From the NCBI RefSeq assembly GCF_007741495.1, contig NZ_CP036262.1:2914001-2978000 (forward strand): a stretch of DNA of 64,000 nt, read 5' to 3'. This stretch comes from Roseimaritima multifibrata (GTDB lineage: Bacteria; Planctomycetota; Planctomycetia; Pirellulales; Pirellulaceae). Both the position numbers and the translations under genes were made by a program. The notes below the pieces were generated by a model. The model did no database searches. It saw only the letters and a program-made list of their open reading frames with translations, and was not told the DNA's origin. Positions 10,727 to 60,331 of the stretch are shown here, piece after piece. Numbering within the stretch: position 1 is the first letter of the stretch; each line of letters starts with the position of its first letter.

Positions 10727-13177
10727 ATGTCCACCAGCCCCTTTGAGATGTTTCGCCGGAACCTCAAGCCGTTAATGATTTTATTGACGATCTTGGCGAT
10801 GTTTGCTTTCGTTGTGCTGCCCGCGGTCGATAGCTGGATGCGGCAGGAAGGCCCCGGAGGTTCGCCAAGCACCGTGGTTGCTAGTTACCGGGGTGGCGAA
10901 TTCGATCAGGGGCGTGTCAATCAATTGACGCGGAATCATTACAACACCGTTCTGTTCCTGAACGCTTTGGCCGATCAGACGATCGAAAAAGGGGGCATGC
11001 CTTCGGTCCCAGGATTCCAGTATGACCCACAGCAGAAACAGGTCACCAGCTTAGGTATCAACGCCAATCCGTCTGCGGAAGCGACGATTTCGGCCCAGTT
11101 GCTTGCTCAACGAGCCGAAAAGCTTGGCTTGGATCTGGACCACTCGGCTGTCAAAGCTTGGTTGGGACAATTCGCTGACAATAAATTGACCGATGGCGAA
11201 ATCGCTTTGGTTTTAAGAAAAGCGACCGATGGTCAATTGGGACAGTACGACATGCTGGAGCAGGTGAAGATTCACCTGTTAAGCAACGCCGTCCAGCAGG
11301 CCTCCCTCTCCGGTTTGGTCGCCTCCAATCGTGACACCATTCCACCGGCCCAGCGTTATGAACTCTTTTTGCGTTTGAATCAGCGAGCCAAAGCGGTCGC
11401 TTATTCGGTCCTTGTGGATGACTATTTGGCGAAGACCGATGCCTCGCCGAGCGAAGAGGCCATTGCCCAGCTCTACGAAGAAGGCAAAGAACGTTATCCC
11501 GACGAAAATTCTATGGAACCAGGTTTCCGCCAAGCCGCAACCGGGACCTTCGAAGTTGTCTCCGGTGACTTTCAAACGTTTATTGCCCGCCTAGCCGAAG
11601 CCCTTCCAGAAGAAACCCTGCGAGCGGAATACGATCGGCAAGTCGCTGCCGGCGGTTTCAAAATTCCTGACGCAATGCCAGGCGAAAACGAGCCAGCAAC
11701 CGAAGAAGCTGTCGAAGAAGCTGTCGAAGAACCAGCGGACGATTCAAAGCCTGCCGAAGCCGAAATGAAAGAACCAGCGGACGCTGAAAAGCCAGCCGAC
11801 GCTGAAAAACCAGCGGACGCTGAAAAACCAGCGGACGCTGAAAAGCCTGCGGATGCTGAAAAGCCTGCGGATGCTGAAAAGCCTGCGGATGCTGAAAAGC
11901 CTGCGGATGCTGAAAAGCCTGCGGATGCTGAAAAACCTGCGGATGCTGATCAGTCAGCGAAAATGGTTCCATCTTCGGTTCAGTTGGTTGCTTTCCGTCC
12001 GCAAGACGATGAAGCCCCTGCAGAAGACGCAAAGCCAGCTGAAGAAGCTAAGCCTGCAGAAGAAGCTAAGCCTGCAGAAGACGCAAAGCCTGCTGAAGAA
12101 GCTAAGCCTGCAGCAGAAGAAAAACCAGCTGATGAAACCAAACCAGCCGACGCTGAAAAGCCAGCTGACGCTGAAAAATCTGCTGACGCTGAAAAACCTG
12201 CCGACGGTGGGGTGCGTCCTTTTGAGGAAGTGAAAGAGCAGATCGCTCAGCAGCTAGTGACCTCCGACGCGTTCACCGAACTGCGTGCATCGATCGCGGA
12301 AGTCCAAAAGATCATGCGAGATTACTCGATCGAACGTGCGATCTACGAAGCTGAACTGGAAGACGATTACGAAGGCGAAGATGGTCCTTCCGACGAGCCA
12401 ACCGCTCCGGATCTAGCCAAATTGGCTGCGGACTACAACCTGAAGTATGAATTGATCGGGCCACACGATGCTGTTTCCATCCAGGAAACGCCCGTCGGTG
12501 GTTCCGCGATGATGACCGGTCAGTTCCAGATGGGAGCATCCTTCCCGCAGGTAATGTTCGGCCAAGAGGGCGAACTTTATTCGCCCGTTGAAACGATGAG
12601 CATGCAGACCGGTGAAACCTACGTTTCTTGGAAGATCGAAGAGACGCCCGACACCATTCCACCGTTGGAAGAAATTCGCGTCGAAGTGGTTAGTGCCCTT
12701 CGCTTTCAGCAGGCTCGAGAGATGGCGCTGACCGCCGCCCAAGAGCTGGCCGATAAAGCAAACGCTTCCCCTGAAACGCCTCTGACCGAATTGGTTCCCG
12801 AAGACCGTCGCGAATTCGTGTACGAGGATTTGGGAGAATTCCCTTGGATGTTGTGGTTGGGCCCAGGCCGAATGCCAATGATCTGGAATATCGAACAGCT
12901 CAATCGTGTTGGCGATGATTTCATGGAACAGGTCTTCACGCAGCCGATCGACGAATATGGAGTCGCTCCGAATCAGCCAGGATCGGTTTATTACGTTGTG
13001 AAAACTTTGTCGCGGACGCCTAGCCAGGATGTGCTGCGAGCTCAATTCATGCAGACGACCGAACGCGATTCGGTCCGCGACATGGCTTCTCGTGAAACGA
13101 GTGAGCTGTATCAGGCGTATGAAGCGAAATGGCGTAAAGACTTGGACCTGCAATGGAATGAGGATTTGAATCAGTAA
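10727..13177 (+). CDS. PpiD/SurA-N-like membrane-anchored periplasmic protein with AEKPAD repeats
   Basis: 816 residues from ATG 10727. A short basic N-terminus (FEMFRRNLKPL) precedes one membrane span (LMILLTILAMFAFVVLPAV), as in PpiD. The next part is rich in helices resembling the SurA N-terminal chaperone region (VVASYRGGEFDQGRVNQLTR, VKAWLGQF). No catalytic parvulin domain is recognisable. Residues about 350-500 are replaced by a Pro/Ala/Glu/Lys repeat, including nine consecutive AEKPAD units. After the repeat, helical regions resume (PFEEVKEQIAQQLV, LEEIRVEVVSALRF). Related long proteins are common in planctomycetes. Role in envelope protein folding is inferred from topology only. Confidence 0.7.
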   Translation: MSTSPFEMFRRNLKPLMILLTILAMFAFVVLPAVDSWMRQEGPGGSPSTVVASYRGGEFDQGRVNQLTRNHYNTVLFLNALADQTIEKGGMPSVPGFQYDPQQKQVTSLGINANPSAEATISAQLLAQRAEKLGLDLDHSAVKAWLGQFADNKLTDGEIALVLRKATDGQLGQYDMLEQVKIHLLSNAVQQASLSGLVASNRDTIPPAQRYELFLRLNQRAKAVAYSVLVDDYLAKTDASPSEEAIAQLYEEGKERYPDENSMEPGFRQAATGTFEVVSGDFQTFIARLAEALPEETLRAEYDRQVAAGGFKIPDAMPGENEPATEEAVEEAVEEPADDSKPAEAEMKEPADAEKPADAEKPADAEKPADAEKPADAEKPADAEKPADAEKPADAEKPADAEKPADADQSAKMVPSSVQLVAFRPQDDEAPAEDAKPAEEAKPAEEAKPAEDAKPAEEAKPAAEEKPADETKPADAEKPADAEKSADAEKPADGGVRPFEEVKEQIAQQLVTSDAFTELRASIAEVQKIMRDYSIERAIYEAELEDDYEGEDGPSDEPTAPDLAKLAADYNLKYELIGPHDAVSIQETPVGGSAMMTGQFQMGASFPQVMFGQEGELYSPVETMSMQTGETYVSWKIEETPDTIPPLEEIRVEVVSALRFQQAREMALTAAQELADKANASPETPLTELVPEDRREFVYEDLGEFPWMLWLGPGRMPMIWNIEQLNRVGDDFMEQVFTQPIDEYGVAPNQPGSVYYVVKTLSRTPSQDVLRAQFMQTTERDSVRDMASRETSELYQAYEAKWRKDLDLQWNEDLNQ
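11778..12210 (+). repeat. 18-bp coding tandem repeat (AEKPAD) and related AKPAEE repeats
   Basis: Nine consecutive 18-bp units encode AEKPAD (about 11785-11948). Six consecutive units are almost identical in DNA, with the GCGGATGCTGAAAAGCCT pattern, which suggests recent expansion. A second, more diverged block encoding AEEAKP-type repeats covers about 12018-12210. Unit length is a multiple of three, so copy-number change keeps the frame. Confidence 0.9.
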
Positions 13178-22784: not shown

Positions 22785-22830
22785 TCACCGTCTGAGTTGT
22801 TGGGCAATGGTCGCCTTTCGCTCGGGGGAT

Positions 22831-23207
22831 GAAAAGAATAAATGAAGAAAGTCTGGCTCCCCTCGCCCCTAAGCAAGCTCTTTGTTGCGGAAGAAATCTC
22901 TGCTAGCTCATTGCGTGATCTCTGCCTCTTTCTTTGATTTAGTGGAGCTCGCTTGGGGGAGAGGGGGAGATTTCCAGCTGGCGATTTTGCAGCGAAGACG
23001 CGGTGAAAGCCTCGGATTTCAGCCGATTATGTCACGCCTTGCCAACGCTGTCGGCCCCTCTCCCCCAGCCCCTCTCCCCCAAAACAAGCCTTTGAATCGT
23101 ACTTAATTGCATTAGCTGGCGAACCGATGATCCGGTATCAAACCTGTTTTAAGCGAGCTTGTTTTGAGGGCGAGGGGAGCCAGACTTTCTTCACTTATTC
23201 TTTTCAC
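22831..23207. mobile_element. 377-bp element with 38-bp terminal inverted repeats (copy 1)
   Basis: The left arm (22831-22868) and right arm (23170-23207) are complementary over 38 bases with one mismatch; both include GTCTGGCTCCCCTCGCCC. The interior also holds G-rich and C-rich stretches that are inversely repeated (GGGGGAGAGGGGGA near 22955; CCCCTCTCCCCC near 23060 and 23077). No protein is encoded. The core is about 94 percent identical by eye to 39705-40084. Such size and ends fit a non-autonomous (MITE-like) element or a large structured repeat. Confidence 0.85.
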
Positions 23208-23311
23208 GCCCCCCCCCCCCGCGAAAGGTTGGCGTGAGTGAGAAGCTCAAGGCGTGACCAATATCCGTCGCGAATAAATCGCACGTCCCGAGCGAAAGCC
23301 GCTTTCAGGGA

Positions 23312-23387
23312 GCGTTCTTTCGTGAAGCGAAAGGGGACAATCGAAAGGTGACGGTGCCGCAGTAGGAACTACCGTCTGGCGACGGTA
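23312..23387. repeat. Two short palindrome-family repeats
   Basis: At 23312-23334 GCGTTCTTTCGTGAAGCGAA continuing into AGG is the reverse complement of a motif at 52458-52481. At 23370-23387 TACCGTC-TGGC-GACGGTA is a 7-bp hairpin with a close relative near 52580. Both are noncoding. Confidence 0.6.
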
Positions 23388-30355: not shown

Positions 30356-30803
30356 ATTCGCTATCGAAAGAGAAGCGGTCGCAGCCCTTCCTAGCGGAAC
30401 GGCGCAAGCCGTCCGGCCACTGTCCTGGAATTCCGCGCGTCCTTGCCGGTCGGCTCGCGCCGATCCGCTAACAAAACGCCCACCGGTCGCAGTCCTTCCT
30501 AGCGGAACGGCGCAAGCCGTCCGGCCACTGTCCTGGAAACCGCGCGTCCTTGCCGGTCGGCTCGCGCCGATCCGCTAACAAAACGCCTACCGGTCGCAGT
30601 CCTTTCTAGCGGAACGGCGCAAGCCGTCCGGCCACTGTCCTGGAATCCCGCGCGTCCTTGCCGGTCGGCTCGCGCCGATCCGCTAACAATACGCCCACCG
30701 GTCGCAGTCCTTCTTAGCGGAACGGCGCAAGCCGTCCGGCCACTGTCCTGGAATTCCGCGCGTCCTTGCCGGTCGGCTCGCGCCGATCCGCTAACAATAC
30801 GGC
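30356..30803. other. Repeat-filled gap between convergent genes
   Basis: This gap lies between the 3' end of the TPR gene and the 3' end of ccoS. Almost all of it is the 4-unit palindromic array. The last unit ends two or three bases before the ccoS stop codon. No gene. Confidence 0.85.
30376..30801. repeat. Tandem array of four 107-108 bp palindromic units
   Basis: Units start at 30376, 30484, 30591 and 30699 and are nearly identical. In each, a 26-base left arm (first at 30392-30417, beginning TAGCGGAACGGCGCAAGCCG) pairs with a 26-base right arm (30445-30470) with three mismatches around a 27-base loop. The left arm itself folds on CGGC-GCAA-GCCG. Spacers between palindromes are about 29 bases. 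The organisation resembles REP/BIME units of other bacteria. Confidence 0.95.
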
Positions 30804-30977
30804 TTACTTGTCTTTTGTCTGCTTTTTTTCGACGCTTGGTTTGTCGTCGATTAGCATGCGCACGGCCGGTGTGTCCATGTCGTCATACTGCCCGCTGCGG
30901 ATACAGCGAATGCATGCGACCATTCCGGCGGCACCTAGGAAGATGGCGATCGGCAACGCGATATATAAAACACTCAT
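30804..30977 (-). CDS. ccoS: Cytochrome cbb3 oxidase maturation protein CcoS
   Basis: 57 residues from ATG 30977 to TAA 30804. One membrane span, SVLYIALPIAIFLGAAGMVAC, followed by the short family motif IRSGQYDDMDTPAVRML with the conserved YDD-D-P pattern. CcoS is needed for insertion of haem and copper into cbb3 oxidase. It starts 6 bases after the ccoI stop, as the last gene of ccoH-SafE-ccoI-ccoS. Confidence 0.93.
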   Translation of the reverse strand: MSVLYIALPIAIFLGAAGMVACIRCIRSGQYDDMDTPAVRMLIDDKPSVEKKQTKDK

Positions 30978-35070: not shown

Positions 35071-35290
35071 ATCTACTTTCTTAGCGGAACGGCGCGAGCC
35101 GTCCGGCAATCGCATCGAAAGCAGAGTGAATTTGCCGGTCGGCTTGTGTTAATCCGCTGGGAGATTCGTCTGCAGATGGTATCTACTTTCTTAGCGGAAC
35201 GGCGCGAGCCGTCCGGCAATCGCATTGAAAGCAGAAGGAATTTGCCGGTCGGCTTGTGTTAATCCGCTGGGAGATCCGTCTGCAGGTGGT
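35071..35290. repeat. Two tandem 110-bp palindromic units (array 2)
   Basis: Units begin at 35071 and 35181 (ATCTACTTTCTTAGCGG). Each has a left arm with TTAGCGGAACGGCGCGAGCC and a right arm GCCGGTCGGCTTGTG...ATCCGCT that pairs with it. The arms match those of the array at 30376, but the loop between them (about 26 bases, AATCGCATCGAAAGCAG...) is unrelated. Confidence 0.92.
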
Positions 35291-35337
35291 ATTGGACGCG
35301 AGCCGTTTCGCCCGATCGACGCCTTCTGTGTGAAGGG

Positions 35338-35400
35338 CGGGCAGCTTGCGCCGTTCCGCTAAGAAAGAAAAGGCCGGACGGCTTGCGCCGTTCCGCTAAG
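35338..35400. repeat. Two inverted half-units of the TTAGCGGAACGGCG family
   Basis: GCTTGCGCCGTTCCGCTAAG appears twice (about 35343-35362 and 35381-35400) in the opposite orientation to the two tandem units just upstream. These are single arms without partners in the usual position. They can pair with the left arms of either array unit. Confidence 0.85.
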
Positions 35401-38163: not shown

Positions 38164-39666
38164 ATGAATATTCAGAGCTTCCTTGAGCATCACGGCGTCT
38201 TGCGAAACCCTTTCGCCGAAGAAGACGCTCAGACCGATCCGGTGTTCAAGGAGCACTGCATTGTCAGTGCCTACCATCCTGTTTGGGATAAGGTTTACGG
38301 TGATCCTACCGAACCGGCTACGGCGATCGTATTTGGGCCCAAAGGTTCGGGCAAAACGGCCATGCGGTTGCAAATTGACCGCCACCTCGCGGCCTATAAC
38401 GTGGAGCATCCGACGAAGCGAATCAACGTCATTCGCTACGATGACTTCAATCCCTTCCTGGATCATTTTCGCGAACGCCTAAGTCGGCGTTCGGCGAAAA
38501 AGCCCGAGCGGGTTTTGGAAGCTTGGCGGTTGTGGGACCACATGGACGCAATCCTTTGCATCGGGACCACCCAGTTGGTCGATCGGGCTTTGGAAAAAAC
38601 GGGTGAAGAGGAAGAGGGCCCGCTGCCGGTGATCGCCAGCCGAGTCGACGATCGGGATTTGGCCAAACTGGACCGAACGACGGCGCGTGATCTGTTGCTG
38701 CTGGCCTGTTGTTACGACCAATCGACCAGTTCATCGTTCACCGGACGTTGGGAACAGTTCCGCCGCAAGCTTGGCTATTCCAATTGGGGCGTGCAATGGG
38801 ATTTGTGGCTTGCGATCGGCTGGGCCGTTTTGATGTTGATGCTGACCGGTTATCTGTTTCGCACCGAAAAGATCGAATGGGATACGGCTGCCTGGATTTT
38901 TGCTGGGCTGTGTTGTTTGGGATGTTTTCCGTACGCACGTCGGTGGTTTCGTTGCCAACGATTGGCGATGGGAATCCATCGCCACATGCGCGTCGGCAAA
39001 CGTGAAATTGGTTCGCTACGAAAAGTCCTCTTGCAATTCCCTGCGAAAGAGCTTGCCAGCCAACCGCTGCCAAGATTCAGTCGTACCGATGATCGTTTTG
39101 AATTGCTGACCAAGTTGCAGCTTGCCGGCAAGAAGCTTGGTTTCTCCGGAACGATCGTGATGTTAGACCGAGTCGATGAGCCTCACATGACCGGCGGAAA
39201 ACCGGAATTGATGCGGCGTTTTGTCTGGCCATTGCTAGACAATAAATTGTTAAAACATCCCGGCCTGGGGTTAAAGCTGATGCTCCCTCAAGAATTGCAT
39301 CGCGACATCGAGCGGGAGAGTACCGAATTCCACGAGCGGGCTCGACTGGATAAACAGAACGTGATCCCCGCCTTCGCATGGACCGGAGAATCGCTGTACG
39401 ACTTGGCGAGAGCAAGGATGAGCGCCTGTGCAGCCGAGGGACGAACACCGGAACCGAAGGATCTGTTCTCCGAGCAGATTGGGTACACTCGACTGTTGGC
39501 CGTGTTCCAGTCCTTAAGAGTTCCTCGCCACCTCTTTCGCTTTCTGTATCGCGTGCTGGTGGAACACTGCAACAAGTACAGCGACGCCGAACCAAACTTT
39601 CAAATCGACTCACAAACCTTTGAATCGGTATTGGCCGTTTATCTTCGAGACCTAGAACCGAAGTAG
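38164..39666 (+). CDS. Membrane P-loop ATPase with KAP-like domain layout
   Basis: 500 residues. N-terminal LEHHGVLRNPFAEEDA resembles ExeA-type ATPase starts. Walker A is FGPKGSGKTAMR (residues 57-68). Two adjacent membrane spans (WLAIGWAVLMLMLTGYLF and AAWIFAGLCCLGCFPYA, about 215-260) sit between Walker A and a Walker-B-like IVMLDRVDEPHM (about 335). Insertion of a paired membrane segment inside the P-loop domain is the hallmark of KAP NTPases. C-terminal part is helical (LAVFQSLRVPRHLFRFLYRVL). The ATPase would be anchored in the membrane with catalytic parts in the cytoplasm. Function unknown. Family assignment to KAP is by topology, not by motif identity. Confidence 0.7.
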   Translation: MNIQSFLEHHGVLRNPFAEEDAQTDPVFKEHCIVSAYHPVWDKVYGDPTEPATAIVFGPKGSGKTAMRLQIDRHLAAYNVEHPTKRINVIRYDDFNPFLDHFRERLSRRSAKKPERVLEAWRLWDHMDAILCIGTTQLVDRALEKTGEEEEGPLPVIASRVDDRDLAKLDRTTARDLLLLACCYDQSTSSSFTGRWEQFRRKLGYSNWGVQWDLWLAIGWAVLMLMLTGYLFRTEKIEWDTAAWIFAGLCCLGCFPYARRWFRCQRLAMGIHRHMRVGKREIGSLRKVLLQFPAKELASQPLPRFSRTDDRFELLTKLQLAGKKLGFSGTIVMLDRVDEPHMTGGKPELMRRFVWPLLDNKLLKHPGLGLKLMLPQELHRDIERESTEFHERARLDKQNVIPAFAWTGESLYDLARARMSACAAEGRTPEPKDLFSEQIGYTRLLAVFQSLRVPRHLFRFLYRVLVEHCNKYSDAEPNFQIDSQTFESVLAVYLRDLEPK

Positions 39667-39704
39667 TGAAATAACCCGCCGAGTATCTTCCGGCGGCTTG
39701 GGAC

Positions 39705-40084
39705 GTGCGATTTAAAAATGAAGTAAGTCTGGCTCCCCTCGCCCCTAAGCGAGCTCTTTGTTGCGGAAGAAATCTCTGCTAGCTCATTGCGTGATCTCTG
39801 CCTCTTTCTTTGATTTAGTGGAGCTCGCTTGGGGGAGAGGGGGAGATTTCCAGGCGGCGATTTTGCAGCGAAGACGCATTGAACGCCTTGGATTTTGAGC
39901 GATTATGCCACGCCTTGTCCAACGCTGTCGGCCCCTCTCCCCCAGCCCCTCTCCCCCAAAACAAGCCTTTGAATCGACCTTAATTGATTTAGCTGGCGAA
40001 CCGTTGATCCAGTATCAAACCTGTTTTAAGTGAGCTTGTTTTGAGGGCGAGGGGAGCCAGACTTACTTCATTTATAAATCGCAC
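39705..40084. mobile_element. 380-bp element with 40-bp terminal inverted repeats (copy 2)
   Basis: Left arm 39705-39744 and right arm 40045-40084 are complementary over 40 bases with one mismatch. Core matches copy 1 at 22831-23207. The outer ten or so bases differ from copy 1 (GTGCGATTTA here, GAAAAGAATA there) yet are self-complementary within each copy. Weaker complementarity continues outward to about 39697 and 40091. No protein is encoded. Confidence 0.85.
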
Positions 40085-40265
40085 ATCCCTTGCCGCTTGC
40101 TGTAGTAAAGTGAAGCCTCATATCTCTCGGTGGTTTGCCGCTTGGTGCTAAATCGATGCTGCGATGGAGGCGGTGCGGCGCCGGGTTGGTTGGATGGTGA
40201 TTTGAGTGGCGTTGAAGCACCGCGCGGGGGATGTTGCTGCAGTCGATTACGAGCACCGCTTCGCT

Positions 40266-40431: not shown

Positions 40432-41946
40432 TTAGACTTTGTCGCCGGTTGGGCAGACGAATCCTTCACGGTACTCACGAGTCAGCATCTTGTTTGCTTC
40501 GTCGTTGTTGGTGAAGCGTTCGGCTTCGGGGTCAAACTTCAGAAGTGGCCCAAGCGATAGAGGCGACCCGTTGGTGTCGACTCCGTTGTCTTTCAGGTGC
40601 TGCATGGTCCGAGCCAGCGTTGCCTGGTTGTCGTCCAAACTTGGGATTTTCGCAACCGCTTCGCTGATTTGATCTGCGGATGCCTTGTTCTTCTCTCCTA
40701 GGTAGTAGGAGATGTTCCCAAGATGGCTGACGCCTGCGGACAAATGTCCGGTCATTGCGTCGGCATTCAGGACGTCGGTATCGCGCCGGTTGCAGGCGTC
40801 GACAAAGTTGCCGAAGTGATCGCCTCCGCCTTTGAATTCCTTGATCACGTTCATGTCTTTGTCGTAAGCGATGCAGTGCGAATAAGTTTTTTGCACCACA
40901 TAACCATCGGTCCCGTAAAACACGACTCCGATTTTATTTCCCTTGGTACTGCCGAACAATTTGTTCAGTTCTTCATCGGCCGAGTTGTCGACGCTTAAAC
41001 CACGGGTTTCGAATACGAGGCATTTGTCGCCGTAATCGTAGATCGATACTTCGGTGTTGGCGGTGTCGCCCGCATCGATGTAAGTCGGGTCCTTGCGTTC
41101 GGCTCGGTACCCGAGACGTCCACCGTAGGAAATAATCTGTTCTGGATGGCGATCAACGCCTAGACCCCAGCGTGCGATATCGGTTTGGTGAGGTCCTTGG
41201 TTTCCGAGGTCACCGTTGCCGTAGTGGCGTTGCCAGTGCCAGTCATAGTGGAAACGCTGGCGAGTAACCTTCGGGTCGGTGATCGTCGCAGGACCGGTCC
41301 AAAGTGCGAAATCGATTCCTTCGGGAATTGGGTAATCGCCTAGGGGTCCGATTGATTTGCGGCGTTTGTAGCACAGACCGCGAGCTAGTTTGACTTCACC
41401 AATATTGCCTTCAGCAATGAACTTGACCGCTTCTTGAACCGCGGCACTACTGCGCGACTGGGTGCCGACTTGGCAGATTCGCTTGTATTTTTTGGCTGCT
41501 TCGACCAGGGCGCGGCCTTCGGCAATATTGTGGCAAATCGGTTTTTCGATGTAGCAGTCTTTGCCCGCTTGCATCGCCCATACGCCACAGAGTGCGTGCC
41601 AGTGGTTTGGAGTCGCGGTGCTGATCGCGTCGACCGAGGCGTCGTCAAAGACGCGTCGCATGTCGGTGACGATTTCAGGACGTTTGCCCTGTTCTTTTTC
41701 GATTTGGCCGGCACGTTGCGATGCCGCTTTGGGATCGATATCGACGACGTGGGTGATCCGGGTCTTGTCGTTTCCCAAGAAAGCCGAAACGTGACTTCCG
41801 CCTCGCCCACCAGCGCCAATGATCGCCACATTCATGGTTTCATTTGCTGATTGAGCCAACGAGGGGCGTACGGCGGCTGCGGAAGCGGCGGCAACGGTTG
41901 TTGCCGCCACGAAATGACGTCGGTTCAGTTTAGGGCGTTGAGGCAT
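40432..41946 (-). CDS. Gfo/Idh/MocA-family oxidoreductase with twin-arginine signal
   Basis: 504 residues from ATG 41946 (ATG 41961 is five codons earlier). Export signal LNRRHFVAATTVAAASAAAV. Nucleotide fold begins VAIIGAGGRGGSHVSAFL; then ATPNHWHALCG and CYIEKPICHNIAEGRAL with the family EKP motif, and NGDLGNQGPHQTDIARWGL in the substrate half. Longer than average for the family (usually 350-450), with a C-terminal extension including DNQATLARTMQHLKDNGVD. Substrate unknown. Monocistronic by appearance, with a strong terminator 38 bases downstream. Confidence 0.93.
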   Translation of the reverse strand: MPQRPKLNRRHFVAATTVAAASAAAVRPSLAQSANETMNVAIIGAGGRGGSHVSAFLGNDKTRITHVVDIDPKAASQRAGQIEKEQGKRPEIVTDMRRVFDDASVDAISTATPNHWHALCGVWAMQAGKDCYIEKPICHNIAEGRALVEAAKKYKRICQVGTQSRSSAAVQEAVKFIAEGNIGEVKLARGLCYKRRKSIGPLGDYPIPEGIDFALWTGPATITDPKVTRQRFHYDWHWQRHYGNGDLGNQGPHQTDIARWGLGVDRHPEQIISYGGRLGYRAERKDPTYIDAGDTANTEVSIYDYGDKCLVFETRGLSVDNSADEELNKLFGSTKGNKIGVVFYGTDGYVVQKTYSHCIAYDKDMNVIKEFKGGGDHFGNFVDACNRRDTDVLNADAMTGHLSAGVSHLGNISYYLGEKNKASADQISEAVAKIPSLDDNQATLARTMQHLKDNGVDTNGSPLSLGPLLKFDPEAERFTNNDEANKMLTREYREGFVCPTGDKV

Positions 41947-42085
41947 TGAGGCGGGCTCCATGATCAGATACTAGTAAAATACGGTACGTTATCGCGTTAG
42001 GTAGTTTAACACAGTCCGCACGCGATCGTGTACATTTACTCGGTTAATCTGCAAACTGCAACCTATTTTAGGAGCCATTTGAACG

Positions 42086-59350: not shown

Positions 59351-60331
59351 CTATGACGAACTGTATATGGCGATGACCAATGCCCCGATCAGTAACAAAC
59401 AGATTGCAAGCATCAGGCTGATCAGTTTGATTCGTTTCTGTTTGCGTTTACTTCGTATGACGCCCGGTTGGTTGTCTCCTTGGAACTCCGCCGTTGGTTC
59501 GTTCACAACGATACGCGTCGGCGGGACCGCAACCACCGGGGCCGCTGGGATGCCAGGAATGTTCGCGGGAGGGATCGGCGGAGTCGCGACGCTTAGTTCA
59601 GGCAACACCTCTTCCGCCGACCGCCACTGAGCCCAGCCATCGCGCCAGAGCAAGGAGCTGGAACCAACGCGGCCCTGTTCGATCCACTCGCACAGGAGGT
59701 CTCCTCCAGCGGGCCCATACTGACCACCGGAACTGGGGCGAACATACCAGATTGCGTCAGGAGCCGAATCCAATTGAGCAAATCGACGTGCGACGGACGT
59801 CGCTGTTTCTTGTGTCGGAGCGGGTACCGGATCGATGGTGTTTGAAGATTCGTCGGAGGCGGCGGCTGGTTCCGGAAAGGATGGGGCTTCAGCCGGCAAA
59901 TCGGGTTGCTCGGGCGTTGGTGGCTCGGCAGGATCCGTACTCGGAGGCGCGTTCGTGCTCGGAGAAGTGCTTGTATTCGGAGACGTGCTCGTGCTCGTGC
60001 TCGTGCTCGGATTAGGATTAGGATTAGGATTAGGATTAGGATTAGGATTAGGATTAGGATTAGGATTAGGATTAGGATTAGGATTAGGATTAGGATTAGG
60101 ATTAGGATTAGCTGCGACTTTGGCAGCCGCTGGTTGGTTGGCGGCCGGTTTGGTTTTGGGGGTCGCAGCTGCGCGGTTCTCCTCGGTTTCCAGAGGTAAT
60201 GACCACTCGGAATCTTCCAAGGGGATTCGCATACGCACCCCGCACTTGGGGCACTTACCGCGCTTCCCAGCGAGTTCCGATTTGATATTCAGTCGCTTAT
60301 GACAAGCGTGGCAGGCGAAACGAACTCCCAT
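59351..60331 (-). CDS. Zinc-ribbon and GYF-domain membrane protein with Asn-Pro repeat
   Basis: 326 residues from ATG 60331. Zinc ribbon CHACHKRLNIKSELAGKRGKCPKC at the start. A Pro/Ala spacer contains 17 consecutive Asn-Pro pairs, then a Ser-Thr repeat. A GYF_2 domain (IWYVRPSSGGQYGPAGGDLLCEWIEQGRV...WRDGWAQWRSAEEVL) occurs at about 215-260. C-terminal membrane anchor LMLAICLLLIGALVIAIY, so the protein is tail-anchored with a cytoplasmic head. GYF domains bind proline-rich peptides, and the protein carries its own. Gap of 15 bases to the upstream cytochrome gene and 4 to the next. Function unknown. Confidence 0.85.
   Translation of the reverse strand: MGVRFACHACHKRLNIKSELAGKRGKCPKCGVRMRIPLEDSEWSLPLETEENRAAATPKTKPAANQPAAAKVAANPNPNPNPNPNPNPNPNPNPNPNPNPNPNPNPNPSTSTSTSTSPNTSTSPSTNAPPSTDPAEPPTPEQPDLPAEAPSFPEPAAASDESSNTIDPVPAPTQETATSVARRFAQLDSAPDAIWYVRPSSGGQYGPAGGDLLCEWIEQGRVGSSSLLWRDGWAQWRSAEEVLPELSVATPPIPPANIPGIPAAPVVAVPPTRIVVNEPTAEFQGDNQPGVIRSKRKQKRIKLISLMLAICLLLIGALVIAIYSSS
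60009..60110. repeat. (GGATTA)17 hexanucleotide repeat inside coding sequence
   Basis: Seventeen perfect copies of GGATTA on the + strand; on the minus strand each unit reads as Asn-Pro. Because each unit is two codons, copy-number changes do not shift the frame. A second short repeat (GTGCTC type, Ser-Thr) adjoins at about 59985-60008. Confidence 0.98.

Follow-up and report, generated by a model that had tools for sequence, protein, structure and literature searches.

A MITE-like, probably mobile repeat in Roseimaritima multifibrata, often at hairpin tips, with arms that pair without co-evolving

Repeats and insertion sequences (ISs) inside palindromes have already been described, as reports on both attest (Tobes and Pareja, 2006, PMC1525189; Di Nocera et al., 2013, PMC3733652). 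The passages of Di Nocera et al. drawn on here place REPs inside palindromes and include tyrosine transposases with inverted repeats on either side, some having GGGGWSAS in common. We followed up two copies of a long inverted repeat in a 64,000-nt window of the R. multifibrata genome (contig NZ_CP036262.1, forward-strand positions 2,914,001 to 2,978,000); the open-licence literature, in its titles and abstract openings, yielded no description of this repeat family. We consider it quite probable that the second copy is a non-coding, non-autonomous, MITE-like mobile repeat, of a kind often placed at the tips of pre-existing hairpins, and that its arms pair without co-evolution.

Both window copies carry outer arms that pair with each other and differ in sequence between copies, as the first-pass annotation had observed. 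Inverted-repeat detection gives copy 2 arms of 52 nt at 39693-39744 and 40045-40096 (92% complementary, spacing 300 nt) and copy 1 arms of 45 nt at 22824-22868 and 23168-23212 (93% complementary). From 39705 the left arm of copy 2 reads GTGCGATTTAAAAATGAAGTAAGTCTGGCTCCCCTCGCCC, to which the right arm is complementary save for one base within 39705-40084, and direct reading bears out the inner pairs reported for each copy (GAAGAAAGTC/GACTTTCTTC in copy 1, GAAGTAAGTC/GACTTACTTC in copy 2). The extent needed correction: sequence, arms and alignment place the copy 2 element, a plus-strand member of what we call class A, at 39700 (GGGACGTG...) to 40089 instead of 39705-40084. Its pairing runs 7 nt beyond the element, the landing site being a palindrome too: GCGGCTT (39693-39699) facing TTGCCGC (40090-40096) with a GCGGC/GCCGC stem of 5. 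By end-type comparison both ends are of type a (39700-39727, plus strand, GGGACGTGCGATTT...GAAGTAAG; 40062-40089, minus strand), and core search and alignment place near-invariant inner arms inside them (TCTGGCTCCCCTCGCCC, 39728-39744, plus strand; 40045-40061, minus strand). The plus-strand interior (39745-40044) folds as DNA into three side hairpins (a GCGAGCTC pair, a G-rich/C-rich pair and a AAACAAGC pair) and as RNA into a partly different structure. Copy 1 (22824-23212, plus strand) has type b ends on both sides, and neither window copy holds a likely gene of its own.

Convergent genes flank both copies. Around copy 2 these are a plus-strand gene of 500 aa, P-loop-like by eye (38164-39666; best named match in R. 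sediminicola, 83% identity), and a minus-strand gene, Gfo/Idh/MocA-like by eye (40432-41961). Direct reading finds copy 1 within a hairpin, with CTTTCGC at 22815-22821 and GCGAAAG, past a run of C, at 23221-23227; nearby are a type a end remnant on the minus strand (AATAAATCGCACGTCCC, 23273-23289) and, beside it, an unoccupied CTTTCG/GCGAAAG double hairpin of the same landing-site family (23292-23345). Elsewhere the window holds tandem repeats at 30376-30861, 11720-12263 and 59985-60129 (107-108-nt period, 18-nt period and GGATTA hexamers) and, at 35071-35400, closely spaced hairpin-type repeats (TTAGCGGAACGGCGCGAGCCGTCC) of a type that also stands unoccupied elsewhere in the genome.

The two copies belong to a large family. 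Across the genome (7.2 Mb, a single contig) the core arm has 175 matches at up to 3 mismatches, against 0 for the control, and the stretches read contain at least 79 paired core arms, at least 76 of them class A. By size, these 79 divide into 64 near-full copies, nine short ones (122-123 nt from the outer end of one core to that of the other), three of 524-538 nt and three of 650-651 nt, the last being a different repeat; most class A copies measure 390-404 nt with their ends. The family is thus, like a MITE, short, multi-copy and, to judge from the window copies, non-coding. It also has shared inverted terminal repeats: ends of about 25-28 nt with the motif GGGACGTGAA....ATAA.TGACGA, which are common to several unrelated palindromic interiors. 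A 25-nt end profile, trained on the same stretches that were scanned and that had been chosen for holding ends, gave 261 matches in 667 kb of them and 0 in one plus-strand shuffle. Among 100 family genomes searched, this genome has 60 occurrences of the end motif, one congener has 16 and another a single one, and the other 97 have none.

The differing outer arms of the two window copies turn out to be two of several end types found genome-wide, i.e., type a (GGGACGTGCGATTTATAAATGAAG), b (GGGGCGTGAAAAGAATAAGTGAAG) and c (GGGACGTGAAATTTATAACTGACG). Left and right types combine in the 64 near-full copies as aa (30), ab (14), cb (9), bb (3), ba (1) and ca (1), with an unassigned end in the remaining six. 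Ninety-three end pairs were found; with the 8 over 700 nt omitted here and from the flank and site counts, the 85 paired elements below 700 nt fall by motif into classes A (43), B (22), D (6) and C (4), with 10 mixed or other. Class A copies also form head-to-tail clusters (genome 2790811-2792426, 2625416-2626727, 2642129-2643338 and 6283334-6287104), spaced about 407-503 nt apart in most and more widely in part of the last.

The first-pass annotation had read the paired, varying arms as compensatory change and offered three causes: selection for a hairpin, repair between arms, or a symmetric insertion site. That copy 2 pairs far beyond chance is plain, with z-scores of -12.6 for the DNA fold and -14.6 for the RNA fold and 0/100 shuffles equally stable in either case. 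A base-paired RNA or DNA hairpin maintained by compensatory changes should, we reasoned, match its own arms better than those of other copies, and we compared arms in the 64 near-full copies (15 of the 79 pairs, of other lengths, being excluded), reduced to 41 by removing near-duplicates. In a plain swap that ignores end types, own arms do match better (18.17 vs. 17.04 of 28, p = 0.0007, n = 41). However, when arms are swapped within the same end-type pair the excess vanishes (18.17 vs. 18.06, p = 0.31, n = 41), and class B, whose interior is unrelated, has none either (17.59 vs. 17.78 of 25, p = 0.89, n = 22); its left ends resemble one another at 20.2/25 and its right ends at 20.8/25, more than the left and right ends of one copy do. 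There is no co-evolution of the arms beyond end type, and with that the compensatory reading fails.

Other copies agree. Mismatched arms, which the annotation itself had named as evidence against its reading, are general: none of the 64 near-full copies has fully complementary 28-nt arms (median 19/28), and left and right end types are unlike in 25. The supposedly compensatory A/T site is A/A in 29 of the 41 non-redundant copies, T/T in 2 and of unlike letters in 10, which the alignment counts as AU 29, UA 2 and unpaired 10. The covariation check proposed for the copies likewise gave little, the RNAalifold covariation term being -1.18 of -62.5 kcal/mol with two-sided changes at 3/63 pairs, and Rfam returned no match for the element at gathering scores. 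Hairpin selection retains in its favor a fold that is very stable under either parameter set, a slight own-arm excess in the inner 10 nt within end types (7.27 vs. 7.11, p = 0.059) and, over the whole named structure, 32 pairs with two-sided change vs. 21.5 in letter shuffles (0/500; slid versions 23 to 31), a control that leaves end type free where the arm swap within types holds it fixed. Two-sided changes thus exceed letter shuffles, though covariation does not support the helices as it would in a structured RNA. We regard selection for the hairpin by compensation as largely refuted and, as an explanation of the family, highly improbable. Paired arms of varying sequence need not signal hairpin selection: insertion into palindromes together with shared end types mimics it, and the swap test tells the two apart.

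Repair between arms would copy one arm onto the other by template switching during DNA synthesis, a mechanism reported elsewhere (PMC7202029, PMC8604942, PMC8794818). A few copies look as though this had happened. Of the two sisters 1627876 (ab) and 1667102 (aa), whose right ends are unlike, the latter has the uncommon TACAA in both arms; in the smallest copy (2221834-2221942, 109 nt) two rare changes recur in both arms, although its outermost ends are of unlike type. On a tree of the interiors, whose bootstrap is not settled and many of whose branches are unsupported, cb copies cluster (2 changes), whereas aa, with 11 changes, and ab, with 9, are intermixed; right ends therefore switch type repeatedly. 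Such switching is also expected from recombination between copies, and arm repair as a general process is at odds with the missing own-arm excess over 28 nt within end types, with the lack of any fully complementary copy among the 64, and with an A/T site at which unlike letters outnumber T/T by 10 to 2. Template switching between close arms may explain 1667102 and 2221834; as the general cause of arm pairing it is unlikely.

The flanks offer another source of pairing. Hairpin-site tests covered 119 elements, reduced to 110 non-redundant ones for the stem test. Flanking stems of at least 6 bp occur in 43/110 elements vs. 3/110 when the flanks are read 25 nt further out, and in 17.6% with flanks swapped, a value raised by the recurrence of the same hairpin families. 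Among the 43 stems, the one at 2086296 is a tandem class A junction and not a host hairpin. Joining the two flanks gives a fold below -6 kcal/mol in 63/110 elements vs. 32/110 further out and 30% swapped. Two site families dominate, with both arms present for CTTTCGC in 25/119 elements and for CGCCTC in 12/119. The five known hairpin arms are on both flanks in only 42 elements and on neither in 37/119. Single sites include CTTCACTCTCCCC, GCGAGCCTC and GATCGGC, and, given the 3/110 control, a few of them can be attributed to chance.

Several landing families also exist as unoccupied hairpins. Empty CTTTCGC/GCGAAAG hairpins number 61 matches (one hairpin read on both strands), with a loop of 3 nt in 57. 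Occupied CTTTCGC sites keep 2 bases on each side in 20/25 cases, and 11/25 have GG+GA or TC+CC, which fits a 1-nt repeat within a GGA/TCC loop; the rest vary. At occupied CGCCTC sites 3+3 bases are kept in 2/12. No target duplication of usual size was found at the occupied sites, where the leftover loop bases vary. We also noted enlarged-loop CTTTCGC hairpins (genome 1685672, 6200298 and 6348085, holding GTCCCC, ACGTCCCC or ATCCCC), which may be what excision or deletion left of the 25-nt ends. Nesting has one clean case, at 4191578-4191904, where a class A element occupies the tip of a class B hairpin and that hairpin in turn lies in a CTTTCGC-like site; 2221763 and 2298618 are further, partly rearranged examples. 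An empty-site comparison in two relatives out of 80 named loci (R. sediminicola, L110, and a Roseimaritima MAG, L111) did not show the element within the 800-900 nt behind the left-gene match, where the sequence is non-comparable.

Flanking stems, empty hairpins and nesting therefore make the symmetric insertion site the best supported of the three options in the first-pass annotation, although the 37/119 elements without known arms count against it as a complete account. The convergent genes around both window copies, and the hairpin nature of many occupied sites, would also suit a transcription terminator or mRNA 3'-end element serving those genes. We think this improbable: the copy number, the nesting and the variability of the ends are in keeping with mobility, and most copies are 390-404 nt long.

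A mobile family of non-autonomous elements calls for an enzyme, and none was found with the 25-nt ends, whether as an autonomous copy or as a transposase, in the 0.65 of 7.2 Mb read or elsewhere among the matches listed. A 538-aa open reading frame (ORF; between genome 3186756 and 3188798) was rejected as partner: it sits in a separate IS-like insert within a class A copy (L082:2379-4080, genome 3186878-3188579), with borders TGGACTGTC/GACGGTCCA and a 9-nt repeat, ggctggggg. This ORF has two identical occurrences in the genome and reached no Pfam cut-off. ORFs in 4618089-4620199 and 3751020-3752830 resemble IS1182- and IS4-type transposases by eye and were taken as putative nested inserts, while 6704837-6706609 spans a host gene and was dismissed as an autonomous copy; at the other one-ended sites no transposase was recognized by eye from sequence or ORF beginnings. 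PF01548, the marker for IS110-type DEDD transposases, had 0 matches in the genome and matches in 4/14 control genomes.

The remaining candidates are Y1 tyrosine transposases. As a rule, Y1 elements have no true inverted ends and rely on a short target motif. It is possible, if doubtful, that the family is a REP-type repeat mobilized by such an enzyme (RAYT/TIRYT) acting on the 25-nt ends or on the G-rich core, a reading that refines the MITE-like explanation and does not exclude it. The genome has 8 Y1 matches. One Y1 gene (L307, genome 7107148 region) lies among 14 class B core matches and one Y1 domain (L308, genome 1282559 region) between two class C core matches; RAYTs are expected beside their own repeats, as at these two loci (Di Nocera et al., 2013, in the part drawn on here), and both repeat families also occur as interiors of 25-nt-ended elements. 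In class A, GGGGAGAG fits GGGGWSAS by eye. Yet none of the 28 Y1 loci of the genus has the class A core (up to 3 mismatches) or the 25-nt end (up to 4), and true inverted ends such as those found here would be unusual for a Y1 element. At 4 mismatches one core-like site appears near L311/L312; the B core is found at L307 and L360 and the C core at L308, and G-rich matches at L361, L364 and L368 fall inside the Y1 match or directly beyond it. The flanks thus give no support to Y1 transposases as carriers of class A.

Under the MITE-like explanation that we favor, the ends of about 25-28 nt, of few sequence types and common to several otherwise unrelated palindromic interiors, would be acted on in trans by an enzyme, and many copies would have inserted into the tips of intergenic hairpins that were already there, duplicating little or none of the target. 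The pairing of the outer arms would then have two ordinary sources, namely that the two sides of a copy can be of one end type and that the landing site was already a palindrome or hairpin, and would not come from joint evolution of the arms. A more far-reaching version, which we put forward tentatively and rate as rather unlikely, envisages genus-level miniature elements in which one set of about 25-nt ends carries interchangeable palindromic cargo and integrates at the triloop tips of differing hairpins, including another element's own, guided by DNA structure with an overlap of about 1 nt and driven by a novel recombinase or a repurposed single-strand (Y1) transposase. This version is made less likely because most recognized sites fall in two hairpin families. 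If insertion were nonetheless structure-guided, the intergenic regions of the genus would record many hairpin-tip insertions, and that record could lead to an enzyme that integrates at hairpin tips.

Set beside known systems, the family shares insertion into palindromic repeats with the REP-targeting ISs (IS1397, IS621, ISPpu9 and others; Tobes and Pareja, 2006, as outlined there), but those carry transposases, whereas the element here is non-coding and the genome has no detected IS110 gene. GTAG/CGTC REPs and BIMEs with their RAYTs, and TIRYT repeats, are likewise palindromic intergenic repeats, in some genomes inside palindromes (Di Nocera et al., 2013, in the passages cited), and interior classes B and C adjoin resident Y1 genes as in those systems. 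REPs and BIMEs, however, are 20-40-nt units; the element here, at 390-404 nt with 25-nt ends, is no such GTAG/CGTC-tagged palindrome, even with CGTC present in its ends (CACGTCCC), and no examined Y1 gene is flanked by the class A core. The closest likeness is to bacterial MITEs, which are also short, non-coding and multi-copy with inverted ends and interiors that vary under constant ends, though here no partner transposase or classical target duplication was found and many landing sites are hairpin tips. The unusual traits of the family are a single set of ends shared by many cargos, a frequent location at hairpin tips, and nesting.
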